From Phycisphaerae bacterium (GTDB taxonomy: Bacteria; Planctomycetota; Phycisphaerae; UBA1845; Fen-1342), in contig JAJVHV010000044.1 of assembly GCA_022072445.1 (NCBI GenBank), forward strand, positions 1-43,138: a stretch of 43,138 nt of DNA. Reading direction: 5' to 3'. The notes beneath the pieces were generated by a model. That model saw only the letters and a list, made by a program, of their open reading frames with translations, was not told the DNA's origin and made no database searches. This document shows, in pieces, positions 10,273 through 38,734 of this stretch; within the stretch, counting starts at the first letter, position 1, and every line of letters starts with the position of its first letter. The position numbers and the translations under genes were made by a program.

Positions 10273-11304
10273 ATGATCCGCCGCATCGCCCCACTGACGC
10301 TGGTCTGTGCCGCCCTGCTGCTGCTCGGGTTTCAAACCGTGCGCGATAGACCGGCGACGCCCGGGTCGGGGCCGTCGCGCGGCGCTGAGTCGGGCGCCGC
10401 CCAGAAGCGCTCTTTGCACAAGAAACTCGAGCACCGCTTCAACGAGACCGGCCGGCCGCTGTCGAATGCCGACGTCATCACCATCGGCGACGTCTCGCGC
10501 GGCATTCCGCAGCCGCGCCGCTTCAAGGGCCAGAAGCTGCTCGGTTACACCTGCCCGACTGTCGTGGTCAACCGCTATGAGACGTGGCAGAACACCGACC
10601 CGAAACTGGCCTACAAGGTGCTTCAGGGCTGGAACGCGCACGAAATGACGCGCTTCGCGCTGGTCCGCGACGAAATCGTCGCACGCGGAACCAACGCACC
10701 CGGCGGCGACCTCGACAGCTCGTTCTACGTGTTCGACGCGCGCAGCCCCAAAGGCCGCGAGCTGGCGCGGCTCACGGCGCTTTCATTTCGCGACATCGGC
10801 TACGACGGCATCTTCGTCGATAACTTCAAGTTCGCCCCGTTCCGCAAACGACGCGACGCCGCCGACACCGCCGGCGGCAATGGCGGCAGCTTTTTCGAGC
10901 GCACCCCGGCGGGCATCGAGCGCGGTTTTGACGAAGTCGCCCATCGCGACGCGCTCGCCGCCGCCATTCAGGCCATGCGCGCCGCCTGGCCCGAGGCCTG
11001 GATCGCCGTCAACACCGGCGACCCATTTCGCTGGGACCGCGGCGACAAGCAGATCGTCGATCTTGACGCCGGCGTGAAGTGGATGGCGGAGCTCGGTATC
11101 GACGCCATCGAGCTGGAAAACGTCGATCGCTTCTACCCGAAGTACGAGAAGACGATCATGGTTTACATTATCGAGTCCGGACGCCGCTGGCTCGCGACAG
11201 GCCGCAGCCTGCAGCTCACGTTCGTGAAGGAGACGCCGGCGGCGCGGATGGTGATCGATGCGCTCGACAGCGAGCGCACCTACGTCGAAATCCGCGAGCC
11301 GTAG
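10273..11304 (+). CDS. putative TIM-barrel glycoside hydrolase-like protein (GHL15 or GH114-like)
   Basis: The 343-residue product starts with a hydrophobic signal segment (MIRRIAPLTLVCAALLLLGF) that has no lipobox. The rest reads as an alpha/beta barrel: LGYTCPTVVVNRYETWQ, FALVRDEIVARG, FRDIGYDGIFVDNFKFAPF, EAWIAVNTGD and LGIDAIELENVDRFYP. The GYDGIFVDNF and IAVN strands resemble those of the GHL15 and GH114-related families, which act on polysaccharides, but substrate and activity are not established. AGGAG lies eight bases upstream; an adjacent GTG at 10270 could also start it. The TAG stop lies inside the first unit of the 28-bp tandem repeat that follows. Confidence 0.6.
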   Translation: MIRRIAPLTLVCAALLLLGFQTVRDRPATPGSGPSRGAESGAAQKRSLHKKLEHRFNETGRPLSNADVITIGDVSRGIPQPRRFKGQKLLGYTCPTVVVNRYETWQNTDPKLAYKVLQGWNAHEMTRFALVRDEIVARGTNAPGGDLDSSFYVFDARSPKGRELARLTALSFRDIGYDGIFVDNFKFAPFRKRRDAADTAGGNGGSFFERTPAGIERGFDEVAHRDALAAAIQAMRAAWPEAWIAVNTGDPFRWDRGDKQIVDLDAGVKWMAELGIDAIELENVDRFYPKYEKTIMVYIIESGRRWLATGRSLQLTFVKETPAARMVIDALDSERTYVEIREP

Positions 11305-11411
11305 CGTCGGCCCTCCGTGGCCACGCCCGTAGCGTCGGCCCTCCGTGGCCACGCCCGTAGCGTCGGCCCTCCGTGGCCACGCCCGTAGCGTCGGCCCTCC
11401 GTGGCCACGCG
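11301..11411 (+). repeat. four-copy 28-bp tandem repeat
   Basis: Units start at 11301, 11329, 11357 and 11385, each beginning GTAGCGTCGGCCCTCCGTGG and continuing CCACGCCC; the last is cut after CCACGC. There are no spacers between units. The first unit supplies the stop codon (11302-11304) of the preceding gene. Confidence 0.95.
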
Positions 11412-14906: not shown

Positions 14907-17270
14907 TCACGGACAATCGTTACAAAAATCTCCACCCGCCACGATCCGCACCGGAAGCGTCAGACTCGCGCGAACGTTGGGATCCGACGACTGCCGAATC
15001 TCCAACGACAGCGTCGCCTCCCGCCCCGCGTGCAGATCGCACCGCGGCCAGATCAGCATCACGTAAACCTCGCTCACCTCGTTAAAGCCGCCCGCCACGT
15101 TCCAGCTCAGCGTCTTGAAGATCGTCAGATTCGGGCTCGAAATCACCTCGCCAGTTGCCAGCGTTACGATCGGCCGGATCTCCACCGCCGCGTCCTGCGT
15201 AAAGCCCGTCACGCGCAGATGCATGTACAGGTCCGCCAGCCCCTGAAAGCCGCAGCAGACCCGCAGATCGCCGTAGTCCAACAGCTTCTCATACGCGCTG
15301 ACGTTGCACGTCCCGTCACGGATGTTGCCGATCTCCAGGTCCGGATCGCTCGTATCCACGCACGCGCCGCCGACGCACTTCTGACCCAGCGCACACTCGC
15401 TCTCGAAGCAGTCGCAGCCGTCCGGCGTCCCATCCGCGTCCACGTCGATGGCGTCGTCGCTGCCCTGGCAGCGATCCAGCGAATCGCACACGCCGTCGCC
15501 GTCGCTGTCGTCCGCCGCGTCCTGCGGACACGTGTCGCAGCCGTCGGGTTTTCCGTCGCCGTCCGCGTCGGCGTGATCGTCGCTGCCCGCGCAGACGTCG
15601 CAGGCGTCTGGCACGCCGTCGCCGTCCGCATCGGACTGGTTGTCTCCGGCGCAGTCGTCGCAGCCGTTCGGCACGCCGTCGCCGTCGGTGTCGAGTCTGT
15701 CGTCCGAGCCCGCACAGACGTCGCACGTGTCGGGCACGCCGTCTCCGTCCGCGTCCAGCCGGTCGTCGCCGCCGGCACACTTGTCACAGCCGTCCGGCAC
15801 GCCGTCACCGTCCGCGTCCACGCCATCGTCGTGACCCGCGCAGCGGTCGCACCCATCCGCGACTCCGTCGCCATCCGCGTCCGCACCGTCGTTGCCCCCG
15901 GCACACGCGTCACACGCGTCCGGCACGCCGTCACCGTCGGCATCGTCGGCGTCGTTGCCCGCACCGCAGCGGTCGCACGCATCCGGCACGCCGTCGCCGT
16001 CCGAATCCGCCTGACACTCGTCCGGCACGCCGTCCGCATCGCAATCGGCGCTCGCCCGCTGCGAAATGTCGGTCGCGTCCTCCACGCCGTTCCCGTTGCA
16101 GTCGTGCACCGGCGGCGGCTCGTCGTCGATGATCGGCAGCGGCGGCGGTGCGTTCTCGATCCGCCCGCCGTCCAGCAGGCGCACCAGCGCCAGACCGGTG
16201 AACGGCGCCGAAAACCGCCCGCCCACGCCGAAGAACCGGTCGGCCGTCTTTCCCCAGATCGCGTGCACAACCAGACTCGAACCGCTCGACTCGCGCGTCA
16301 CCGTTCGCGTTGCAACGTCGAACCGCCCCACGAAACCGTCGACTCCGCCGACGATCGCCTCGCCCGCGCTCACCATGCAGACGGCATTCAACCCCGGCAG
16401 CGCCGCGGGCTGGATCGTCGTCCACTGCGATCCGTCAAACGTCGCGATCCGCGCCGACGAGCGCCCGCCGACCGCGACGATGTTCCGCTCGCTTGTTCCC
16501 CACAGCGAGACGAAGTCGTCGTCCGCCGCCGCCCCCGTCGCAACCTGCTTCCATGCCTGCCCGTCAAACTCGACGATCAGCCCGCGCTCGCCCACCGCGA
16601 AAAGCTTCGAGCCGATCCCCCAGATCTTGAACAGCGCCGTCGCCGCCCGGTCATTCGCCGGCGGCGCGACCGAGGTGAAGGCCGTCCCGTCGAAGTGCAG
16701 CAGAACCGGCTCGACGCCGCCCGAGCCGCCCACCACCCACAGGTCGTTCGACGCCCGGCCCCAAACGCCCCACAGATCCTGCGTCGTCCCGGTCTCGAGC
16801 TTCGTCCAGCGCACGCCGTCGTAGTGGATCGCCCCGCCCCCAACACCGACCGCGTACACGTCCGCCGGCCCGAAGCCAAATACCCACACCAGCAGCCCGA
16901 CGCCCGCCGGAACCTTCATCCCGCGGCACACCGTCCCGTCGAAGTGATACACTTCCCCCTGCGTCGGCGTTCCACCCACGAAGAACACGTCCGACGCACT
17001 GCTGCCCCACACGCCCGACAGCACGCCGCCCCCGCCAGCGTCAAAAATCGCCGACCACGTCCCGCCCAACACCTTTCCGGAGCCGCTGTCGTTCGAGCTT
17101 CCGCCGCCGCTTCCGTTCGATCCGTTGGTATTGGAGTTTCCACCCTGCGAGGTCGGATCGCCGCTGTCGTCCGCCGGCGCATTCCCCGGGCACCCACCCG
17201 GCAACGCGCACACCAAGAGCGCGCAGACCGCGAGCAGCGCCGCACGGCGCATCCCACGTAGAGCTTGCAT
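14907..17270 (-). CDS. lipoprotein with beta-propeller-like domain and thrombospondin type 3 repeats
   Basis: The 787-residue product has a lipoprotein signal with lipobox region ALPGGCPGN, a Gly/Ser/Asn-rich linker, and a propeller-like domain with repeated W-G-x-S/T-x-x-D/N motifs (GVWGSSASDVFFVGG, GVWGRASNDLWVVGG, SLWGTSERNIVAVGG). About ten thrombospondin type 3 repeats of form DADGDGVPDxCDxCAGxxD follow; these bind calcium in known proteins. A C-terminal domain of about 150 residues with several cysteines closes it and is not recognised. The ATG at 17270 is used; 17252 is an alternative. A cell-surface structural or adhesive role is inferred. It lies 112 bases upstream of the tetrahaem gene on the same strand. 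Confidence 0.82.
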   Translation of the reverse strand: MQALRGMRRAALLAVCALLVCALPGGCPGNAPADDSGDPTSQGGNSNTNGSNGSGGGSSNDSGSGKVLGGTWSAIFDAGGGGVLSGVWGSSASDVFFVGGTPTQGEVYHFDGTVCRGMKVPAGVGLLVWVFGFGPADVYAVGVGGGAIHYDGVRWTKLETGTTQDLWGVWGRASNDLWVVGGSGGVEPVLLHFDGTAFTSVAPPANDRAATALFKIWGIGSKLFAVGERGLIVEFDGQAWKQVATGAAADDDFVSLWGTSERNIVAVGGRSSARIATFDGSQWTTIQPAALPGLNAVCMVSAGEAIVGGVDGFVGRFDVATRTVTRESSGSSLVVHAIWGKTADRFFGVGGRFSAPFTGLALVRLLDGGRIENAPPPLPIIDDEPPPVHDCNGNGVEDATDISQRASADCDADGVPDECQADSDGDGVPDACDRCGAGNDADDADGDGVPDACDACAGGNDGADADGDGVADGCDRCAGHDDGVDADGDGVPDGCDKCAGGDDRLDADGDGVPDTCDVCAGSDDRLDTDGDGVPNGCDDCAGDNQSDADGDGVPDACDVCAGSDDHADADGDGKPDGCDTCPQDAADDSDGDGVCDSLDRCQGSDDAIDVDADGTPDGCDCFESECALGQKCVGGACVDTSDPDLEIGNIRDGTCNVSAYEKLLDYGDLRVCCGFQGLADLYMHLRVTGFTQDAAVEIRPIVTLATGEVISSPNLTIFKTLSWNVAGGFNEVSEVYVMLIWPRCDLHAGREATLSLEIRQSSDPNVRASLTLPVRIVAGGDFCNDCP

Positions 17271-17406
17271 GACTGCTTCGACCTCTCGCTCGACGTGCGG
17301 AAGAGAAGTGGGGCCGGACCGCACGCGCAGCACAAAGAAACTGAACAAACGCCCGAGGCGTTTGCGGCATTATACCCGCCCGAGTGCCTCCGGCAAACAG
17401 AAACCT

Positions 17407-18549: not shown

Positions 18550-19059
18550 ATGCAGTGTCCTTTCTGCAAGGCTAACGATGATCGCGTCATCGATTCCCGC
18601 TCTACTGATGCCGACCGTTGCGTGCGACGGCGACGCGAGTGCCTGGCGTGCGGACGCCGCTTCACCACGTACGAACGCGCCGAAACCGCCGTCCGCCTCT
18701 CCGTCATCAAGCGCGACGGTTCGCGCGTCCCATACGAGCGGTCGAAGCTCGAAGAGAGTGTCCGCCGGTCGGCCTACAAGCGTCCGATTTCGGCTGAGCG
18801 GCTCGAGCAGGTGGTTGACGAGATCGAAGAGCGCATCTTCGCTTCGCATGAGCGCGAGGTCACGAGCCAGGTGATCGGAGAGCGCGTCTCAGAAGTGCTG
18901 CGGCGAGTGGACAAGGTTGCCTACGTTCGGTTCGCCAGCGTGTATCGGCAATTCGAAGACGTCGGCGACTTCATCGACGAGGCTCGCGATGTCCTCGAGC
19001 GCGCGGACGAGGACGTACCCGGGCAGCAGCCGCTCTTCGGCGCGGAGGGGCAAACGTGA
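18550..19059 (+). CDS. nrdR: transcriptional repressor NrdR
   Basis: The 169-residue protein is a typical NrdR: a zinc ribbon with Cys3, Cys6, Cys31 and Cys34 (MQCPFCKANDDRVIDSRST, RRRRECLACGRRFTTYER), then an ATP-cone (about 50-140) with VIKRDGSRVPYERSKLEESV and VGDFID near its end. NrdR binds paired boxes upstream of ribonucleotide reductase genes in response to dATP versus ATP. The gene lies about 115 bases downstream of two NrdR-box-like sites and overlaps the next gene by GTGA. No ribonucleotide reductase gene is in this window. Confidence 0.97.
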   Translation: MQCPFCKANDDRVIDSRSTDADRCVRRRRECLACGRRFTTYERAETAVRLSVIKRDGSRVPYERSKLEESVRRSAYKRPISAERLEQVVDEIEERIFASHEREVTSQVIGERVSEVLRRVDKVAYVRFASVYRQFEDVGDFIDEARDVLERADEDVPGQQPLFGAEGQT

Positions 19060-19643
19060 GCCGGCATCGTCGATTATGGGTCATCAAGGTTGATGGAGCG
19101 TCCGAGCCGTTCTGCATCCCCAAGGTGCAACGCTGCGTCAACCGGGCCCTCCGCGAAGCGAGTTTCGACCCCGCACCGGCCATGCCGCTGGCCAAGGCGA
19201 TCGCCGCCCACCTCGCTCAGACTCGCGAGGTCGAGCGCCCGCAGACCGAGTTCATCTTCCAGTGCGTTCACGGCGTGCTGGCGGAAACCGGATTCCGGCG
19301 GGCGGCCGAGGCACTGGTGCGTCATCGTGACAAGCGCAGCCGAGTGCGCGAGCAGATTCGCATCTTCCGCTTCGACGCCCCCGCGTTGGAGCCCGCGGCC
19401 TGGTCCAAGTCGGCCGTCGTCGCCACGGTGCAGACGGAGTATCGCGTGCGGCCGTCCGTCGCGCGGGTCGTTGCCGCCGAAATCGAAGCCAAGATCGTGC
19501 TCCTGGGCTACCGCTGCCTCTCGAGCGATCTGTTGGAGTCGTTGATTCGAAACGAGCTGTCAGCCTGGGGCCTGCTGCACAGCTTTCGTGCGTGCGAGGG
19601 TGTCGAGTGTGCACCCATCGCGGCCCGGCCGGACATTGACTAG
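19056..19643 (+). CDS. double ATP-cone protein, overlapping nrdR
   Basis: The 195-residue protein begins at GTG 19056, overlapping the nrdR stop. Residues about 7-100 (LWVIKVDGASEPFCIPKVQR through RRAAEALVRHRDKR) align with the ATP-cone of NrdR, keeping the VIKxDG opening. Residues about 112-175 (AAWSKSAVVATVQTEYRVRP, EIEAKIVLLGYRCLSSDLLE, SLIRNELSAWG) look like a second, divergent ATP-cone of the kind found at the N terminus of some ribonucleotide reductases. There is no zinc ribbon, no DNA-binding domain and no reductase domain. A nucleotide-sensing partner of NrdR or a co-regulator of the reductase is a reasonable inference. No named family is known to me. Confidence 0.7.
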   Translation: MSRHRRLWVIKVDGASEPFCIPKVQRCVNRALREASFDPAPAMPLAKAIAAHLAQTREVERPQTEFIFQCVHGVLAETGFRRAAEALVRHRDKRSRVREQIRIFRFDAPALEPAAWSKSAVVATVQTEYRVRPSVARVVAAEIEAKIVLLGYRCLSSDLLESLIRNELSAWGLLHSFRACEGVECAPIAARPDID

Positions 19644-19680
19644 AGCAACCCGTTCCCACTGCGCCACGGCGAGAACGGCC

Positions 19681-19904
19681 GTCGATGTCCTGGTCCGCAG
19701 GTGTTGCCGCCGGCGCGCGGCTCTCGTACCACGCGCGTCGGCCACGAGCGTGCAGGATGCCGGCGCGCAGCGATCATGGAGGACCTGTTTTGCCTCACCC
19801 TGGGTGAAACCGCTGCGTGCCTATTCCAACCAAGCCTCCGTTCCCTGTTGAGGGGGCGAGTCGAGTCCCGCCATCGCCCACTGCTCGACTCGCCCATTCT
19901 TTCC
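19681..19904 (+). repeat. 224-bp duplicated element, copy A, with terminator
   Basis: This segment recurs at 23805-24028 with one visible mismatch (C for T in the tail). Its 3' end is a strong intrinsic terminator on the plus strand: GGGCGAGTCGAG (19854-19865), an 18-base loop, CTCGACTCGCCC (19884-19895) and ATTCTTT. Inside are further self-complementary pairs (GCCGC/GCGGC, CTCGT/ACGAG, GGAGG/CCTCC, TCACC-CTG-GGTGA, CCCT-GTTG-AGGG), suggesting a folded RNA. The minus-strand reading frame runs out of both copies into unrelated sequence without a stop, so it is not a protein gene. The rest of the gap to the MarR gene (19905-20148) holds only a REP-like hairpin at 19938-19956. Confidence 0.9.
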
Positions 19905-19937
19905 GCCAACGACAATCCAGCTAGCGCGGCGCTGTAG

Positions 19938-19956
19938 CACAGCCGCCTCGGCTGTG
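19938..19956. repeat. REP-like hairpin
   Basis: CACAGCCG and CGGCTGTG flank a CCT loop, preceded by TGTAG as in the units at 7978-8035. It lies between the convergent ATP-cone and MarR genes and has no T-rich tail. Confidence 0.7.
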
Positions 19957-20148
19957 ACCCGATGTTGCACATCTCGCGAAATGCCATCCGAGCCCCAAGC
20001 GGCAGCGCGCGGGCATTACTTGAAACTCGCCCCCATGGTCCCGGACCCACGCCAACCCTGAGCGCTTCCGCGCCAAACGTTCCCGCCAGGCGTTTCTCGA
20101 AGGCCCACAACCTCGACACCGGCGGGGCGCGCTCCGGGCCGTGGCGAC

Positions 20149-20703
20149 CTACCGCGCGGCGGTGCGGCCGGCGATCCGCTTGCGCGCAGTGTGCCGCGCA
20201 TTCTGTCCAGCCGTCCTCGTAGTCGCGAGCAGGAGTCGGCGTAGAAGCCCGGCGAGAGATTTCTCCTCGGAGGCGGAAAAGCCGCAGATGTTACGCCGCG
20301 CGTCGTCCAGGCGCACCGCAATGGCTTCATCAACGAGCTTCCGCCCCTCGCGTGTCAGCGCGATTTGGACGCCGCGTCGATCCTCCGGGTCGGCCTCGCG
20401 AACCACGAGGCGCAGATTCTCGAGACGATCGATGCGATTGGTCATGGCGCCGGAAGTAAGCGTGACCAGTTGCATCAGGCGCGTCGGGGATAGTTTGAAC
20501 GGGGGCCCGGCTCGGCGGAGCGCAGCCAGCACATCGAATTGCCACAGCGTCAGTTCGAAGCGTTCGAGCGCGCGATCGGCACTGTGCTCGAGGTGTTTGG
20601 CGAGCATCAGCACGCGGCTGACGACGCCGAGCGCGGAAGGGTCCAGGTCCGGCCGTTGGCGGTTCCACTGTTCGATGAACAGGTCCACCGAGTCACGCTC
20701 CAT
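20149..20703 (-). CDS. MarR family transcriptional regulator
   Basis: The 184-residue protein has the MarR winged helix: ALERFELTLWQFDVLAALRR, SPTRLMQLVTLTSGAMTNRI (recognition helix region), DRLENLRLVVREADPEDRRG and VQIALTREGRKLVDEAI for the wing. The ATG at 20703 is preferred over the TTG at 20754. It is transcribed away from the universal stress protein gene, with a palindrome in the shared control region, so it probably represses itself and that gene. The ligand is unknown; many MarR proteins respond to phenolics or oxidants. The C-terminal tail is unusually Arg/Ala-rich. Confidence 0.9.
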   Translation of the reverse strand: MERDSVDLFIEQWNRQRPDLDPSALGVVSRVLMLAKHLEHSADRALERFELTLWQFDVLAALRRAGPPFKLSPTRLMQLVTLTSGAMTNRIDRLENLRLVVREADPEDRRGVQIALTREGRKLVDEAIAVRLDDARRNICGFSASEEKSLAGLLRRLLLATTRTAGQNARHTARKRIAGRTAAR

Positions 20704-20767
20704 TGGGCAGATGTCCTCGCGCTGATCGGAAGGCGATTCACTGACCGCACGCAAACCAGCCTAAATC

Positions 20768-20812
20768 GACAATGCTTGTTGTCAAGATACTTGACGCGAA
20801 GCTTTATATAAT
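20768..20812. promoter_or_regulatory. MarR-type operator and -10 of the stress protein/MscS operon
   Basis: A perfect palindrome GTCAAG-ATA-CTTGAC (20781-20795) overlaps a second one, GACAA-N6-TTGTC (20768-20783). A consensus -10 TATAAT follows at 20807-20812 on the plus strand. No good -35 is spaced for it. Palindromes of the CTTGA type are typical of MarR binding sites, and this one lies between the divergent MarR and universal stress protein genes. Confidence 0.55.
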
Positions 20813-20896
20813 CTATCTCCAGATGGAGCCATCGGGTCGTCCGCGGCGGCTCCGCCGCGGCCGCCGATGGACGCGGGCGCACGAGAGGCGAGCCGG

Positions 20897-21427
20897 ATGA
20901 TCAGCAGCATACTCATCCCGACCGACTTTTCGGAATTATCCACGCATGCGCTGCGGTACGCCTGCGATCTTGCGCGCGTGTATCACGCGGACCTGCATGT
21001 CTTGCACGTCGTCTCGCCCGCCAGGGAAGCGTCGCTCGCGATCGATGCCGGGGCGGCGGCGGGCACCGGCATGCCGGGCGTGGTCGTGCTGGAATCCCCG
21101 CTCGAGGTCGCCGCCCGCAAGCTGCGTGAATCGCAGGCACAGATCGCGGCTTTGAGCGGCGACCTCCCGCTCAGGCCGGTTGCGGTTGTCCGCACCGGCG
21201 TGCCGTGGGACCAGATTGTCCGCTACGCTGACGAGGTCGGCGTCGATCTGATCGTCATCGGCTCGCACGCGCGGGGAGTGATGAAACGCATCTTGCTGGG
21301 TTCGACCAGCAAGGCCGTGCTCGAACACGTGTTGCAACCGGTGCTCATGGTCCCGATCGCCGCGCTGCCGTGCGACGCGTCGACGGCCAGAAACGTGGAC
21401 GCGACGGCGACGGGCGTCGGAGCTTGA
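20897..21427 (+). CDS. universal stress protein (UspA family)
   Basis: The 176-residue protein has the Usp fold: ILIPTDFSELSTHALRYACD at the start, LHVLHVVSPA, GVDLIVIGSHARGVMKRILL and GSTSKAVLEHVLQPVLMVPI at the end. The G-x2-x2-G...GS pattern is that of ATP-binding Usp proteins. A loop of about 30 residues (SLAIDAGAAAGTGMPGVVVL) is inserted after strand 2. The ATG at 20897 is chosen because the family begins two or three residues before ILIPTD. The MscS-like channel gene follows 36 bases later, so this is likely a stress operon. Confidence 0.92.
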   Translation: MISSILIPTDFSELSTHALRYACDLARVYHADLHVLHVVSPAREASLAIDAGAAAGTGMPGVVVLESPLEVAARKLRESQAQIAALSGDLPLRPVAVVRTGVPWDQIVRYADEVGVDLIVIGSHARGVMKRILLGSTSKAVLEHVLQPVLMVPIAALPCDASTARNVDATATGVGA

Positions 21428-21463
21428 CGACGTCAGCCGTTTTTTGCGTGGACGGGAGCGACA

Positions 21464-23530
21464 ATGGTCAACGGCACTGCGACGCAGCGCTGCGCTTTCC
21501 TCGGCGCGCTGTTGCTGGGGCACTCGACGGCTCTCGCGCAAGAGCAGCCCGACTCTCGTCCCGCGCGCGAGCCCGCGCCGGCGCAAGCTGAACCGCGCAA
21601 GCCCGGGGAATCCGACGCCACGCCGACCGACGCGGAGAAAATCGCAAGGCTCCAGCGGGCAATCGACGACTCGACCCGACAAGTCGAGAAACTCCGCGCG
21701 CAGTTGAGCGACCCGGCTTCCGAGTTTGCGCAGGCGGAGTCGGCGTTCGCCAAACTCGATCAGCAATTGCAGGAGGCAAGGAAGGCGCTCGCAGCGAGCG
21801 GCGATGGCGACGACGGCCGCGCGCGGCAACGTCAAAGTGAACTGAACGACCTGCAGCCCAAGCACAAGCTTGCGAAGGACCGCTTCGATCTCGCGATTCG
21901 CGAGCGCAAGACTCTTCAGGAGCAGATCGCGACGCTTCAGCAGAAAATTCTGCAAGACACAGACGCGCTGAAAAAACTCAAGGGCGAGCACGGCCCGCCG
22001 ACAACTCAACCAGCCGCCGAAACGCACGCCGTTCCGACCCAGACCCCGATTGTGCCCGCCCCGGCGTCTGGCCCACCGTTGACCGATGCCCCGACGCCCC
22101 CGGCGGCGCCGGCTGCGGTGGACGCCCCCGCACCGGCGGTCAACGCCGCCCCCGTTTCGCAGAACCCCGCGCCGACGAGCGCAGCGCCGGACGTTACCGA
22201 AGCACGACAGGAAGCCGACCGTAAGCAAGCTCAGGCTCAAGTCGCTCAGGAGGAGGTCGCATCGATTACCGATCGGATGAGCGCGCTTCGCAAGAGCATC
22301 GAGTTGGAGCAGAAGCAATTCGAAAACAGCCGACGGAAGGCGGAGAACGCGCAGGCCACCGAGCGAACGCTCTACGAATCCCTTCAGAAGAAGTGGGAGA
22401 CGGGAGCCGCGCCGAGTGAACGGAGTGAGCTCCGCGGCCAAATCAACCAGGCACGCGAGCGCCTGCGAGAAGCTCAGGCCGAGATCCGCAACCGGACGGA
22501 CCAACTGGACCAGTACCAGGCCGAACTCTCGGCGCTTCAGACCGAGCATATCGCGGCGATGGAGGAGGCGCAGCGCCGCCAGTCGGACGCGGCACAGGCG
22601 CAGAAGCGCGTCGAACACCTGGAAAGCCCGCTATCCCCTCGAAACCTGTGGCGCTGGTTTCTGCAGCGCGGTCCAAAGGTCGGCGGCATCATCGCCGCGA
22701 TGTTCGGCTTGCTGTGGCTGTCGCGATTGGTCGAGGGACGTGTCGTCCAGCTCATGGCCGGGCGCGGCGGTCAGGGCAGCACCGAGGATCGCGAGAACCG
22801 CGCCAGGACGCTGGTCGGCGTGATTCACAGCGCCGCGACCATCGGCATCTACGCCGGCGGCGGACTGATGATCCTCACGGAGGTCGGCGTCAACATCGTT
22901 CCGCTCATGGGCGGCGCCGCTGTGCTCGGCCTGGCGGTCGCATTCGGCGCGCAGAATCTGATCCGCGATTACTTTTATGGCTTCATGATCCTTCTTGAAA
23001 ACCAGTACACCATCAACGACGTCGTGAAGATCGGCGACGTGGCCGGCCAGGTGGAGCGCATCACGCTGCGCGTCACCGTCCTGCGCGGTCTCGACGGCAC
23101 GGTGCACTTCGTCCCGAACGGCGAGATCACGCGGGTCAGCAATATGACGCACGAGTGGTCGCGGGCCCTGTTCGAGATTCCGGTCGCCTACAAAGTGGAC
23201 GTCGATCGGGTGATGCACGAACTCATGGAATTGGCCAAGGAGCTGCGGCGCGATCCTGAGTTCCGTGGCCTCATCCTCGAAATGCCCGAGATGCTCGGCG
23301 TCGACGAGTTTGCGGATTCCGCCGTGGTGATCAAGTTCCTGATCAAGACGCGCCCGCTGAAGCAGTGGACTGTGAAACGCGAGCTGCTTCGCCGGATCAA
23401 GCGCCGATTCGACGAGCTCGGCATCGAAATCCCGTTCCCGCAGCGCACGATTCATCACCGCTACGAGGATGGCGGCGAAGAGCCACCCTCGTCGCATTCG
23501 GGGCGATTCGAACATGAGCCGCGCCGCTGA
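21464..23530 (+). CDS. MscS-family mechanosensitive channel with coiled-coil extension
   Basis: The 688-residue protein has a signal peptide (ending TALAQEQ), a long periplasmic part with heptad-like coiled coils (about 50-160 and 245-385) split by a Pro/Ala/Thr linker (about 175-240), then membrane helices from about 400. The MscS core starts near 480: VLGLAVAFGAQNLIRDYFYG is the pore-lining TM3, FMILLENQYTINDVVKIGDV the upper beta domain, and VHFVPNGEITRVSNMTHEWS the vestibule. The large N-terminal part recalls MscK/YbdG-type relatives. It releases osmolytes on membrane tension. GGGAG lies six bases upstream of the start. Confidence 0.92.
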   Translation: MVNGTATQRCAFLGALLLGHSTALAQEQPDSRPAREPAPAQAEPRKPGESDATPTDAEKIARLQRAIDDSTRQVEKLRAQLSDPASEFAQAESAFAKLDQQLQEARKALAASGDGDDGRARQRQSELNDLQPKHKLAKDRFDLAIRERKTLQEQIATLQQKILQDTDALKKLKGEHGPPTTQPAAETHAVPTQTPIVPAPASGPPLTDAPTPPAAPAAVDAPAPAVNAAPVSQNPAPTSAAPDVTEARQEADRKQAQAQVAQEEVASITDRMSALRKSIELEQKQFENSRRKAENAQATERTLYESLQKKWETGAAPSERSELRGQINQARERLREAQAEIRNRTDQLDQYQAELSALQTEHIAAMEEAQRRQSDAAQAQKRVEHLESPLSPRNLWRWFLQRGPKVGGIIAAMFGLLWLSRLVEGRVVQLMAGRGGQGSTEDRENRARTLVGVIHSAATIGIYAGGGLMILTEVGVNIVPLMGGAAVLGLAVAFGAQNLIRDYFYGFMILLENQYTINDVVKIGDVAGQVERITLRVTVLRGLDGTVHFVPNGEITRVSNMTHEWSRALFEIPVAYKVDVDRVMHELMELAKELRRDPEFRGLILEMPEMLGVDEFADSAVVIKFLIKTRPLKQWTVKRELLRRIKRRFDELGIEIPFPQRTIHHRYEDGGEEPPSSHSGRFEHEPRR

Positions 23531-23605
23531 AGCACCACACACCCGCGATCCGAGGCGCCGCAAGACGGTTGAGTCGCGACTCGATCTCCCCGCAACCGTC
23601 CCCCC

Positions 23606-23804
23606 CTACTCCGCGTTGCCGCCCCCGCCGCTCCCGTTGCCGCCGCCCCCGTTCGGATCCTGCTCCAGCATTTTGCGCAAATACTCGTTCTCGCGGCGGG
23701 TCGCTTCGAGGTCGAACATCAGGTATTTAATCGACAGCCGGAGCGAATCGATGCTGTCCTGCAGGCTGTTCACCGTTCGCTTGATGTCGTCGTGACGCTT
23801 TTTG
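23606..23804 (-). pseudogene. coiled-coil protein truncated by the 224-bp element
   Basis: A minus-strand frame encodes about 65 residues: KKRHDDIKRTVNSLQDSIDS, LRLSIKYLMFDLEATRRENE and YLRKMLEQDPN, followed by a Gly/Asn tail. The helix has coiled-coil heptads. Immediately upstream the frame enters element copy B, whose first base is 23805, so the native start is gone; the open frame only reaches an ATG at 23869 inside the element. The element probably landed at or near the start of this gene. It may be inactive, or may use a start within the element. The family is not recognised. Confidence 0.55.
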
Positions 23805-24028
23805 GTCGATGTCCTGGTCCGCAGGTGTTGCCGCCGGCGCGCGGCTCTCGTACCACGCGCGTCGGCCACGAGCGTGCAGGATGCCGGCGCGCAGCGATCA
23901 TGGAGGACCTGTTTTGCCTCACCCTGGGTGAAACCGCTGCGTGCCTATTCCAACCAAGCCTCCGTTCCCTGTTGAGGGGGCGAGTCGAGTCCCGCCATCG
24001 CCCACTGCTCGACTCGCCCATTTTTTCC
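23805..24028 (+). repeat. 224-bp duplicated element, copy B, with terminator
   Basis: Copy B matches 19681-19904 at every position except one in the tail (CATTTTTTCC here, CATTCTTTCC in copy A), at a constant offset of 4,124 bases. The terminator stem is at 23978-23989 and 24008-24019. Flanking bases differ completely on both sides of both copies, so the boundaries are sharp. No terminal inverted repeats and no target-site duplication are evident. Confidence 0.92.
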
Positions 24029-26459: not shown

Positions 26460-27172
26460 CGATGGCGCGGCGCGGCAAGCTTGGGTTCGCGATGCTCTTC
26501 ACGACGGGCGTGCTTTGGCTCGCGCCGCTGGCGAAGGCCGATCCGTGTTATCTGCGCTACGACGCCGATGGCGTGTTTCCGGAAGAGGCGGGCTGGACGC
26601 GGTTCTATGATGACGGCGCCGGCGAGAGCAGAAGCATTGACCAAGGAGTCCTCACCCTGGATACCTTGGCCTCCCGCGATATTTTCGACCTTTACGAGGT
26701 CTCGGATGAGGCGCTAACGCCGAATGCTGGCGAGGAGTTCTCGCTGTCTTGGCGGATGCAGACGACGGCGCAGGACGCGAGCTTTCCCAAGAGCGATGTT
26801 GCCGTGGGTGTGATTAACAGTGAGCACTCGTACGCTATCTTGTACATCGGTTCGGATTTCGTGACGGAGGATCGCTTTCTCGCGGGATTCACGGAGCTCG
26901 CAGCCTCTTTCGCTCCCGATGTTGCTCATACCTTTCGCTTTCTGACGCGCGACATGGAGACTTATTCGCTGTTTGTCGATGGGCAGCCGGCGTTTACCGG
27001 TGAATTCCATGACTACGCGTGGCGGGACGTACCTCGCGTGAGCTGGGGAGATGCGTTTGTCGGCTACGCGTCTCTGTCTCAGTGGGACTTTGTAGAAGTA
27101 GCTGTCACACCGGAACCGCCATCCGTACTCGCCGTCGCAGCCTGCTTACTCTTGCGAAAGAGATTTCGATGA
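26456..27172 (+). CDS. PEP-CTERM secreted protein, copy 1
   Basis: The 238-residue protein has a signal peptide (about residues 8-28, ending LAKADP), a beta-rich body (LRYDADGVFPEEAGWTRFYD, EEFSLSWRMQTT, YSLFVDGQPAFTGEFHDYAW), and a PEP-CTERM tail, VTPEPPSVLAVAACLLLRKR, which exosortase systems use for sorting. The body resembles a concanavalin-type lectin/LamG sandwich; this is a guess from strand pattern. Its ATG overlaps the Rieske stop (ATGA), so it is read as part of the respiratory operon, though nothing in it suggests electron transfer. The gene and the three that follow are visibly richer in A and T than the flanking cytochrome genes. Copy 2 lies at 27871. Confidence 0.78.
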   Translation: MTMARRGKLGFAMLFTTGVLWLAPLAKADPCYLRYDADGVFPEEAGWTRFYDDGAGESRSIDQGVLTLDTLASRDIFDLYEVSDEALTPNAGEEFSLSWRMQTTAQDASFPKSDVAVGVINSEHSYAILYIGSDFVTEDRFLAGFTELAASFAPDVAHTFRFLTRDMETYSLFVDGQPAFTGEFHDYAWRDVPRVSWGDAFVGYASLSQWDFVEVAVTPEPPSVLAVAACLLLRKRFR

Positions 27173-27834
27173 GGATCTGGCAGCTTGGGTATTTGTGTGT
27201 CATGGCTTGCGTTTCTGTCGATGCATTCGGGCAAAATTATCGATCGGATAATTTCGGCTCTGGAAAGTGGTGTGTATTTGCCCGAAATGCGCAGGCGCCG
27301 GGTTCAGGAGACTACGATTGGAATCAAGTCTCCGGTGTACTCACGATCAAGAACGATGGTACGTGGCAAATCCGCTACCAAAACGACAGCAGCTTCTTTG
27401 TAGGTACAGCGATCGATATTCCGGGAGTACTCACCCAGTCTAACGCTGGCACCGGGCAAGGATTCGCTGCACGCCTGGAGGGTCGAAGTATCATCGGTCG
27501 CGTCGATCTAGATCTGCTCAATGCTCAGCCCTACGGCGACTTCTATCTTCGCCTCGAACAGGGTGGAGGTGTTCAGGCTGTCGTAACGGCCGGCACACTG
27601 CGCATGACTTGGTCCGAGATTCCCGGCGGCATCACGAGTGCCGGTAACCTCCAGGTCGAGGAAGTATGGAGCCACCCAACATATGGATACGGTGTCAATA
27701 TGGGTGGCAACGTCGCCGGTCAGTTTCGCATTTACGAGGACATCGAAAACGGCTCGGCGGTCAGCATCGCCGGAAACCTCTCCGGCGAACTACGCGTCAA
27801 TCGAGGTTCGCGATCTGCTTGCGAGTTGAGTTGA
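27169..27834 (+). CDS. secreted QNYR-type protein, copy 1, 3' end deleted
   Basis: The 221-residue product has a signal peptide (MRIWQLGYLCVMACVSVDAF) and a repetitive beta-structured body (FGSGKWCVFARNAQAP, VLTIKNDGTWQIRYQND, TLRMTWSEIPGGITSAGNLQ, GNVAGQFRIYEDIENGSAVS). The start overlaps the previous stop by ATGA. Compared with copy 2 (28617-29896), about 614 bases are missing after GELRVNR, including both dockerin repeats; 614 is not a multiple of three, so the last nine codons read the old tail out of frame. The remnant of the original ending (VRDLLAS, stop) is visible in another frame at 27806-27829. The function is unknown and the product may be non-functional. Confidence 0.65.
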   Translation: MRIWQLGYLCVMACVSVDAFGQNYRSDNFGSGKWCVFARNAQAPGSGDYDWNQVSGVLTIKNDGTWQIRYQNDSSFFVGTAIDIPGVLTQSNAGTGQGFAARLEGRSIIGRVDLDLLNAQPYGDFYLRLEQGGGVQAVVTAGTLRMTWSEIPGGITSAGNLQVEEVWSHPTYGYGVNMGGNVAGQFRIYEDIENGSAVSIAGNLSGELRVNRGSRSACELS

Positions 27835-27850
27835 AAACGGCCCCGTGTCG

Positions 27851-27949
27851 GAACAGGACGAGCATCACCCATGAGCATCATGAATCGCGTAGGCGACTGG
27901 ATCACCGGCTCGCAGATCTGGGGCTCCATTTTTCGGCACGGCGCTCCCA
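27851..27949 (+). repeat. 99-bp repeat of the cytochrome b start, copy 1
   Basis: This segment matches 29918-30016 with only about three differences (offset 2,067). It comprises the leader and first 26 codons of the cytochrome b gene. It marks the junction of the tandem duplication: after 27949 copy 1 enters the PEP-CTERM gene while copy 2 continues as cytochrome b. Confidence 0.95.
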
Positions 27950-28626
27950 GTGCGATGGCGTTGCTCATAGCGCCTCTAGCGGCCGCCGATCCGTACTACC
28001 TGCGCTATGACGCGGACGGCGTGTTTCCTGAAGAGTCGGGCTGGACGCGGTACTATGATGATGCCGGGGTCGAAAAACGCTCGATCGAGGAGGGTGTTCT
28101 CTCGCTGGACACGACCGGGGCGCTGGAGATCTTCGACTTGTACGAGGTGGTAATTCCGGCGTTGAACCTCAAGTCGGGCGAGTCGCTCCGCGTATCCTGG
28201 CGCATGCAGACCGTCGACACGAACGCTGAGTTTCCGAATAGCGATGTGAGCGTGGCGATCGTTAATGAGCGCGGCGCTTTTGCCGGCTTCTACATCGCGA
28301 GCTCCTATCTGATCGAGTTCCGGTATCTGCTCGGATACGACGAGCTGCACGTGCCGATTGCTCCCGGCGAGTTTCACACGTATGAGTTTGCAAGCTTCGA
28401 CATGGAGACTTATGATCTCTATGTGGATTCACAGCTTGCCATAAGTGGGGAATTCCATGATTTCGCATGGCGCGATGCGCCGCGAGTAGGTTTTGGCGAT
28501 TCGGTTACGGGGTATACATCGGTGTCGCTCTGGGATCGCGTCGAAGTCTCAGTAACACCGGAACCAGCGTCGCTCGTTGTGCTGTTGGTGCTCGGACTGA
28601 CGAGGAGAATTCTGACATGGCGTTAG
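27871..28626 (+). CDS. chimera: cytochrome b N terminus fused to PEP-CTERM protein, copy 2
   Basis: The first 26 residues ([26 protein letters not shown]) are identical to the start of the cytochrome b protein at 29938. From residue 27 on (AMALLIAPLAAADPYYLRYD) it is a homologue of the PEP-CTERM protein at 26456, ending VTPEPASLVVLLVLGLTRRI. The front of the original signal peptide has been replaced by the amphipathic cytochrome b leader. The remaining hydrophobic stretch is short, so export may be impaired. The frame is intact over 251 codons. This is the expected product of a tandem duplication whose right break lies in codon 26 of cytochrome b and whose left break lies in the PEP-CTERM signal peptide. 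Confidence 0.85.
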   Translation: MSIMNRVGDWITGSQIWGSIFRHGAPSAMALLIAPLAAADPYYLRYDADGVFPEESGWTRYYDDAGVEKRSIEEGVLSLDTTGALEIFDLYEVVIPALNLKSGESLRVSWRMQTVDTNAEFPNSDVSVAIVNERGAFAGFYIASSYLIEFRYLLGYDELHVPIAPGEFHTYEFASFDMETYDLYVDSQLAISGEFHDFAWRDAPRVGFGDSVTGYTSVSLWDRVEVSVTPEPASLVVLLVLGLTRRILTWR

Positions 28627-29896
28627 CGAGAGTTGTTTGTATATCAGTGCTTTTCTCCGGAATCTCGAGTTTTTCCGCGGCGCAGAACTACCGCGCGGAG
28701 ACTTGGGGAAGCGGAAAATGGTGCGTCTTCATCCGAAACGGTCAAGCGCCCACCATGTCCACTACACCTGGGACAGCCAGTTTGGCTTCCTCACTCTTCG
28801 TGATGATGGAACTTGGGTGATTCGATACCAGAACAACAATAGTTTCTTCGCTGGCTCGGCGATCGATATTCCTGGTGTCCTGACCACGCTCAACGCGGGG
28901 CACGGACAAGCCTTCCACGTGCGGCTCGAGGGGCGTGACATTCTGGGTACGGTTGACTTGGATAGGCTGAATGCATCACCCTTTGGGGATTTGTATCTTC
29001 GGCTTGAGCAGGGAGGTGCAGTCAAAGCGCTTGTTGGTGCGGCTAGCATGCTTCGTATGACCTGGTCCGAGATTCCCGGCGGTATCACAAGCGCTGGCAA
29101 TCTCCAAGTCGCGGAGGTTTACAGCCACGCGACGTTCGGCTACGGCGTCAACATCGGTGGCAACGTCGCCGGGCAGTTTCGCATCTATGAGGACATTGAG
29201 AACGGCTCGGCGGTCAGCATCGCGGGAAACCTCTCGGGCGAGCTGCGCGTCAATCGATACCTGGCAGGCGAGATTCGAATCAACGGCTCGTTGATCGACG
29301 GCTCGTACGCCAACGAAATCCGGATTGAGAACGATATTCTTTCCACGGGCGCCATCGCCGTCGACTACAACGGCTGGCAGAGCGGCGACGACTGGCAATC
29401 CGGCGCCCACGTCTTGGTGGGCGGCGACGGCGGGGCCGTATACACAAGCAACACGCCATCCGAACGCATCTGGGAGATCACGCCCTGCAAGGGCGACATG
29501 AATAATGACGGCTCGGTCAACGGGTTTGACGTCGATCCGTTCGTATTAGCGCTCGCTGGCGCAACCGGCTACGCCTCTGCGTACCCAGGGCTGGCTGGCA
29601 GCATGGTCTTTCACGGCGATTTGAACTGCGATGGAAATCTCAATGGCTTCGATGTCGATCCGTTCACCGATCGTGTCATCGAAAGCTGCTGCCTTGCGAC
29701 CTGCGGCTCTTGCGGCGATGGACTGCTTGGCGGCGGGTCACACGACCCAGCGACGATTGCCGATCTCTTCAAGGACAATTTGAGCGAGGGCGGGCTGGGC
29801 GTTTTCCTCAACATACTCGACGATATGATCGCAAGCGCCGACAGCGAGACTGTCGCCGAATTCTGGACCATTGTTCGCGACCTGCTCGCGAGCTGA
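28617..29896 (+). pseudogene. secreted QNYR-type protein with dockerin tail, copy 2, frameshifted
   Basis: The gene starts at 28617, overlapping the chimera by ten bases, with signal peptide MALARVVCISVLFSGISSFS and mature start QNYRAETWGSGKWCVFIRNG. After QAP the frame is lost: the homologous continuation (HHVHYTWDSQFGFLTLRDDG) is one frame back, from 28751. Restoring one C in the run CCC at 28749-28751 gives a full-length protein of about 426 residues. It would include the repeats shared with copy 1, a second beta block (YLAGEIRINGSLIDGSYANE), two dockerin-like loops (GDMNNDGSVNGFDVDPF, GDLNCDGNLNGFDVDPF) and a C-terminal helix region. Whether the shift is real or a sequencing error cannot be told. 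Confidence 0.75.
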
Positions 29897-29917
29897 GTTG
29901 ATATGGGCACAGTGACA

Positions 29918-30016
29918 GAACAGGACGAGCATCACGCATGAGCATCATGAATCGCGTAGGCGACTGGATCACCGGCTCGCAGATCTGGGGCTCCATCTTT
30001 CGGCACGGCGCCCCCA
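29918..30016 (+). repeat. 99-bp repeat of the cytochrome b start, copy 2 (native position)
   Basis: This is the partner of 27851-27949 at the true cytochrome b start. Homology between the two copies also extends leftwards through the QNYR-type gene tails (27806 against 29873, same offset of 2,067 bases) but at lower identity. Confidence 0.95.
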
Positions 30017-38198: not shown

Positions 38199-38380
38199 CG
38201 GTTGCGCGCCGAAAGTGCCCTGCGCGGCCGCTGTGCTAGGAATTATAGGGATGCGTGAGATTGCGCATGCCTCGGTTGCGCCGTGCGGAACGTATTATGG
38301 GGCGCTGCGGCGTGATGTTTTGTTCGTGGCCGAGGACGCTCTGCGCCGTGGGGACGTTCTGGTACGGCGTGCCTGTCCCG

Positions 38381-38734
38381 CCTGCGGCCCCTCACTGGCG
38401 TGAGGGGTTCGGATGGGTCGATGCCGTCGGGCGGCCGCGTGCGTGCGTCCGACGCTTCGGAGGAATCCGAACCCCCGACGCGAGTCGGGGGCCGGACGGC
38501 GACGGTCCGCAAACGCGGGGACGCCGGCGCGCCCTGGAAACGTCCGTCGTGCGGCGTGGCTGTCGCGCCTGCGACCCCTCACTGGCGTGAGGGGTTCGGA
38601 TGGGACGACGCTGCCCCGCCTGCGACCCCTCACTGGCGTGAGGGGTTCGGATGGGACGACGAGCGGCGGATGGTTCGATGCGTGCGTCCGACGCAGGTCG
38701 GCGGAATCCGAACCCCCGACGCAAGTCGGGGGCC
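38381..38734. repeat. array of two alternating hairpin repeat families
   Basis: Family 1, CCTGCGRCCCCTCACTGGCG continuing TGAGGGGTTCGGATGGG, occurs at 38381-38417, 38568-38604 and 38619-38655 and folds as CCCCTCAC-TGGC-GTGAGGGG. Family 2, beginning GGAATCCGAACCCCCGAC and folding as CCCCCGAC/GTCGGGGG, occurs at 38462-38493 and 38703-38734 and, inverted and altered, at 8102-8132. A shared piece with CGTGCGTCCGACGC precedes both family 2 copies. The stretch 38158-38794 contains no convincing gene. Confidence 0.85.

Follow-up and report, generated by a model that had tools for sequence, protein, structure and literature searches.

A probable structured RNA gene conserved behind nrdR in a family of Phycisphaerae, with a truncated local duplicate in one genome

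We analyzed a 43,138-nt stretch of a Phycisphaerae bacterium genome (assembly GCA_022072445.1, contig JAJVHV010000044.1, positions 1 to 43,138; hereafter, the window) in which a 224-nt block occurs twice, once just after nrdR and a second ATP-cone open reading frame (ORF) and again about 4 kb further on. The first block is the larger part of a predicted structured RNA gene that ends this operon; the second is a truncated duplicate of it. The features of the locus are as follows.

18550–19059, + strand: nrdR (Pfam ATP-cone, 1.7e-21; Zn_ribbon_NrdR, 6.3e-19)
19056–19643, + strand: second ATP-cone ORF, its start overlapping nrdR (Pfam ATP-cone, 1.2e-10)
19661–19904, + strand: copy 1, the full-length ancestral RNA gene (from an alignment of 22 homologs; 5' end placed by conservation, unmapped)
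19661–19681, + strand: invariant GCGCCACGGC (19661–19670) and hairpin P2 (19667–19681), absent from copy 2
19682–19761, + strand: variable region, extended in this species and carrying an additional hairpin (about 30 nt in relatives)
19762–19821, + strand: P3 domain, made up of an outer stem (19762–19772/19811–19821), the GGA loop and an inner hairpin
19775–19782, + strand: candidate CsrA site C-AUGGAG-G (AnGGAn loop), proposed from the published consensus, with GGA invariant in relatives
19835–19847, + strand: CCTCCGTTCCCTG, highly conserved, apparently unpaired, containing anti-Shine-Dalgarno CCUCC
19852–19904, + strand: terminator with stem GGGCGAGTCGAG/CTCGACTCGCCC, a conserved C-rich loop and a T-tract (19896–19904)
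23606–23807, − strand: paralog of a conserved coiled-coil gene, its 5' end cut off by copy 2 (from identity to a gene on contig G000:C2 of this genome)
23805–24028, + strand: copy 2, a 5'-truncated duplicate of 19681–19904 without GCGCCACGGC (from repeat comparison)

An earlier reading of the sequence alone (the sequence-only reading) had described two near-identical 224-nt copies with unrelated flanks, internal stems and a terminator, and had proposed a mobile small RNA gene or a non-autonomous element carrying one. Repeat comparison recovered both copies at exactly 19681–19904 and 23805–24028 (repeat family D2), with a single differing base inside the T-tract (C19899 versus T24023) and flanks that are indeed unrelated; the stems and the terminator are present and are kept in relatives. 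When copies were counted genome-wide, as that reading had suggested, these two were the only full ones in the 5.25-Mb assembly, the third match being a 37-bp partial one with 87% identity that lacks the conserved 3' part. The functional element exceeds the 224-bp repeat, starting about 20 bp further upstream at GCGCCACGGC (19661). This motif opens the RNA in relatives and lies immediately 5' of the duplicated block in copy 1; because it precedes copy 1 and is absent at copy 2, copy 1 is taken as ancestral and copy 2 as 5'-truncated. We are highly confident that the block belongs to a structured RNA gene, with copy 1 at its ancestral place and copy 2 a truncated duplicate. Along with the GCGCCACGGC element, copy 2 has probably lost some function.

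Homologs were sought among related genomes. The family of this genome, here called f1, was represented by 27 metagenome-assembled genomes (MAGs) of Phycisphaerae. A DNA search covering 101 genomes gave homologs in 22 f1 genomes, this one included, and essentially nowhere else, with one further match (G059) that was marginal and partial; the matching contigs belong to Phycisphaerae and other Planctomycetota MAGs. A covariance model (R1) built from 20 relatives, with the window's own sequences left out, detected both window copies at an expectation value (E) of about 2e-25 (copy 1, 2.3e-25). It found the RNA in 25 of the 27 f1 genomes, with one copy in each of 24 relatives and two in this genome. 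Genomes outside the training set were detected at E values of 5.5e-33 (G016), 7.5e-33 (G022), 1e-25 (G023) and 1.2e-33 (G026). As for the two f1 genomes without a match, the contig ends inside nrdR in G020, and nrdR is missing from the G025 assembly. With stricter filters, which may lose weak matches, no R1 match at E 0.001 was found either in the rest of the order (114 genomes, two weak matches at 0.006–0.007) or in a class sample of 397 genomes. A match in G045 (E 0.007) was discarded, as it was not at the nrdR locus.

The evidence for a structured RNA comes mainly from covariation. A 42-pair structure with five helices, chosen partly from the same alignment and so somewhat favored by it, had 92.7% of its cells paired, compared with only 37–44% for slid-control structures, and showed two-sided changes in 20 of its 42 pairs. 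None of 500 shuffles reached any of the five covariation measures. The RNAalifold structure gave a similar picture (two-sided changes in 18 of 37 pairs), and compensatory changes above controls mark the element as a structured non-coding RNA. As G-U pairs numbered 125 on the + strand and 15 on the other, the RNA was assigned to the + strand. Its conserved order, 5' to 3', is GCGCCACGGC with hairpin P2, the P3 stem with the AnGGAY-loop hairpin, the strand AAnCCUCCGUUCCCCUGAUG, and the terminator. The terminator stem was paired in 100% of cells in 20 relatives and its C-rich loop is nearly invariant, while the P3 outer stem was paired in 97.7% of cells, with two-sided changes in relatives at 8 of 11 pairs. 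Hairpin P2 (84%) and the GGA hairpin (80%) are less certain. The 224-nt strand folded better than shuffled sequences (z −3.06, 0/200), but a longer stretch of 250 nt from 19655 did so less clearly (z −1.80), and for this reason we treat folding energy as weak evidence by itself and rest the case on covariation.

The position of the RNA was constant. In all 25 f1 genomes, it lies directly downstream of nrdR and the second ATP-cone ORF on the same strand, separated from the ATP-cone stop codon by 28–49 nt in most measured genomes, by 94 nt in one and by 17 nt in the window. The genes that follow vary, with one conserved codirectional gene in about 10 of 18 genomes and a convergent MarR gene in the window. 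That gene encodes about 200 amino acids (GLYxFxFxxWTxLGYTAEEx...) and begins about 60–190 nt after the RNA, for example at loci L100, L102, L103 and L111. Since the upstream genes are constant and the downstream ones vary, the RNA was attributed to nrdR and not to the gene that follows. Taken together, conservation, structure, strand and synteny indicate that the nrdR/ATP-cone operon ends in a structured RNA gene passed on by vertical descent.

Probable diverged counterparts were found at the same locus in two other families. In the sister family f7, represented by seven genomes, an RNA of different appearance follows nrdR and the ATP-cone ORF: a GC-rich stem around usually two GGA motifs, then a terminator with GCGCCACGGC in its loop. 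RNAalifold predicted 35 pairs for six of these sequences, 12 of them with two-sided changes; one f7 genome (G055) lacks the RNA. In one f5 genome, nrdR is followed directly by GCGCCACGGCTAGACC, UCACGGAGG and a hairpin that resembles a terminator and has a T-tract; R1 matches this locus only at E 0.005. Common to f1, f7 and f5 are the locus, GCGCCACGGC, an AnGGA motif and a terminator, and these short motifs and the synteny suggest that the three are likely one RNA family. The occurrence of GCGCCACGGC at an f6 locus (L138) was judged a coincidence, and GAGCGCCACGGC was rejected as a high-copy repeat, being found 3–12 times per genome, modestly above its control overall. A second element was seen in f7 near position 1500 (L151, L156, L160, L167, L172), with CCTCCGGATC...GATCCGGAGGAGCGCCACGGCTAAGA-AGCCGT and, on the other strand, a hairpin followed by T-rich sequence that resembles a terminator. 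It contains the nrdR-RNA motif in reverse complement, and the two could therefore pair. Rfam searches of the related f5 and f7 loci matched nothing except, elsewhere, a weak c-di-GMP-II riboswitch candidate downstream of an f7 RNA (L134, 506–587, − strand; 27.3 bits, where the cut-off is 53.5, and E 0.058).

Invariant parts of the RNA point to a possible mode of action. In the alignment of 20 relatives, the AnGGAY loop has the GGA and the next-but-one G in 20/20 and the A two positions before GGA in 18/20, with the base between A and GGA free to vary (0.1 bit). It resembles the published site of CsrA/RsmE, an ANGGAN hexaloop with the consensus RUACARGGAUGU from in vitro selection (SELEX), in which AC and GU, on either side of the loop, pair with each other (PMC7652899). 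The pattern C-A-n-GGA-n-G occurred in 16 of 22 f1 RNAs and in all seven f7 RNAs, where shuffling gave means of 1.0 and 0.4, respectively, though the sequences are related and not independent. A CsrA gene is present in 40 of the 41 relatives, with this genome counted among them, and Hfq was detected in none of the 41.

We propose that the RNA, whose sequence closes with its own intrinsic terminator, is probably either freed from the operon transcript or transcribed from a promoter close by, and that its most likely work is post-transcriptional regulation. CsrA would bind the hairpin loop with the invariant GGA, and CCUCCGUUCC, likewise invariant and predicted to be single-stranded, would mask Shine-Dalgarno regions of target mRNAs with the assistance of CsrA; alternatively, the RNA may act by CsrA titration. 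CsrA binding of the RNA is a tentative prediction, to which we give slightly less than an even chance. The full account, namely a conserved nrdR-operon RNA gene regulating through CsrA and CCUCCGUUCC and a copy 2 formed by local duplication, seems to us as apt to be right as wrong. More speculative, and rather doubtful, is the broader proposal that in this planctomycete lineage, where Hfq was not detected, a conserved small RNA arises from the 3' end of the nrdR operon and, via CsrA and an anti-Shine-Dalgarno strand, ties control of ribonucleotide reduction to a global CsrA network, with the sister-family counterpart retaining the CsrA-like loops while its other sequence was rebuilt.

Several observations weigh against CsrA-dependent regulation by this RNA. 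There is a single invariant GGA hairpin in f1, and CsrA-titrating RNAs usually carry several; AnGGA by itself is common on the opposite strand as well; and the GGA loop of the window copy is closed by a weak stem. No sigma-70-type promoter was found, and both the transcript and its CsrA binding are predictions. GGAACGGAGG, the 10-base complement of CCUCCGUUCC, was rejected as a target word since it is not enriched in the genome (nine matches, two of them inside the RNA itself, against six for the control), and we claim no target for this reason. The RNA could instead be a cis-acting 3' untranslated region (UTR) of the nrdR mRNA, that is, a strong terminator and a stabilizing or regulatory structure on its own transcript, with neither a free small RNA nor CsrA. 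Its place at the operon 3' end in every case, 17–94 nt past the last stop codon, and the missing promoter fit this explanation. A mere terminator would not need the invariant GGA loop, CCUCCGUUCC, GCGCCACGGC and terminator loop, and the f7 terminator stem differs in sequence, yet AnGGA and GCGCCACGGC are kept there; on balance we hold the cis-acting explanation possible but somewhat unlikely. It is improbable, in our estimation, that the invariant GGA pairs with a downstream UCC (CCUCC in f1, CAUCC in f7) in a long-range fold that involves no protein. In the window, GGAGG is a perfect match to CCUCC, and the f7 sequence GGAUGAG matches CUCAUCC in L128 and L130, but the fourth base of GGANG mismatches CCUCC in most f1 RNAs, and the f7 RNAs of L121 and L126 retain AnGGA without CAUCC.

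Two further explanations were weighed. A role as leader or riboswitch of the gene that follows would agree with the terminal terminator and with the conserved same-strand gene described above; other genomes, the window included, have a different downstream gene while nrdR is constant, and we consider a leader very unlikely and rejected it for want of a constant downstream gene. The sequence-only reading stood only in part. The small RNA gene is borne out by covariation, strand-specific G-U pairs, the conserved terminator and fixed synteny, and mobility is contradicted by a single copy at the same locus in relatives. In favor of mobility, one genome has two near-identical copies with unrelated flanks. 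Against it, the copies sought in relatives exist but number one per genome, always at nrdR, and several dispersed copies, as expected of a transposon or miniature inverted-repeat transposable element, are not seen. In agreement with the reported lack of terminal inverted repeats, none are visible at the ends and no inverted-repeat pair was found in the window at a 40-nt threshold; nor was a target duplication seen, the flanking bases sharing no direct repeat. The duplicated block also begins inside the conserved RNA, so that the block edge is not the gene edge, and has a 3-bp microhomology at its left junction. We regard a mobile element as extremely unlikely.

The left junction of copy 2 suggests how it arose. 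Window 23608–23807 aligns with the gene at G000:C2:43488 (85% DNA identity, 98% over 51 amino acids); of 41 genomes searched, 37 have a homolog of that gene. The alignment ends at 23807, exactly at the start of copy 2, with GTC common to both, and the window paralog lacks the first 35 codons as read from the C2 gene. Because the paralog alignment stops at copy 2 with the shared GTC, a duplication of the microhomology type is favored over transposition. Copy 2 would stem from one recent local duplication; the anatomy is plain and the process conjectural, and the event was probably a chance one. There is a small chance that faulty assembly of this MAG produced the second copy. Reading a single genome can make a recent local duplicate look like a mobile element. 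The reading frame of the truncated paralog now continues into the antisense of copy 2.

Other repeats were noted in the window. Neighboring genes are duplicated at 26522–30016, with a 144-nt repeat of 91% identity (27806–27949, 29873–30016) whose second unit overlaps the start of the ORF at 29938. Repeats of 63 nt at 15516–16016 lie in an ORF at 14907–17348 (− strand) and encode acidic DxDGDGVPD repeats, 28-bp tandem repeats at 11299–11410 are exact, and 50–63 bp repeats surround the palindrome CCCCTCACTGGCGTGAGGGG at 38362–38662.

The RNA was also compared with known systems. An Rfam search, proposed earlier as a check, returned no match in the window at gathering scores and none at E ≤ 10 around copy 1. 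Publications on NrdR in connection with small RNAs, or on RNAs of Phycisphaerae, mainly in non-subscription journals, held no description of the element, and on functional RNAs in planctomycetes we found almost nothing. The element resembles 6S RNA (RF00013) in its size, structure and occurrence once per genome. It was rejected as 6S RNA, having no match to that model, and a separate candidate lies elsewhere in the genome (G000:C3:351926–352110), scoring 45.6 bits, just under the 46.4 cut-off. Many relatives' 6S candidates score similarly, and the Rfam model may under-score planctomycete 6S RNA.

Like the CsrA-antagonizing RNAs CsrB and RsmZ, the element would be an intergenic structured RNA with GGA in a hairpin loop, here an AnGGAn loop in a covarying hairpin of the predicted structure, and an intrinsic terminator. 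Unlike CsrB, which has about 22 GGA sequences (PMC7652899), it has one invariant loop in f1 and about two in f7, is fixed at nrdR and has no Rfam match; lacking the multiple GGA sites of such a sponge, it was not classed as one. In Bacillus subtilis, CsrA promotes the pairing of the small RNA SR1 with ahrC (PMC8501984) and is reported to act on the ahrC mRNA. As a possible base-pairing RNA that uses CsrA, the element is comparable to SR1 in having a candidate base-pairing strand and a CsrA-like site in a lineage encoding CsrA; it differs in that no target was found for it and in belonging to a clade without detected Hfq. It is also like 3'-UTR-derived bacterial small RNAs, lying on the same strand right after the last ORF and supplying the operon's terminator, with release only predicted here. 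A strongly covarying RNA fixed at nrdR in a clade with CsrA and no detected Hfq offers a concrete entry to RNA-based regulation there. It is a new RNA family which, if our interpretation holds, works like a CsrA-linked regulatory RNA.

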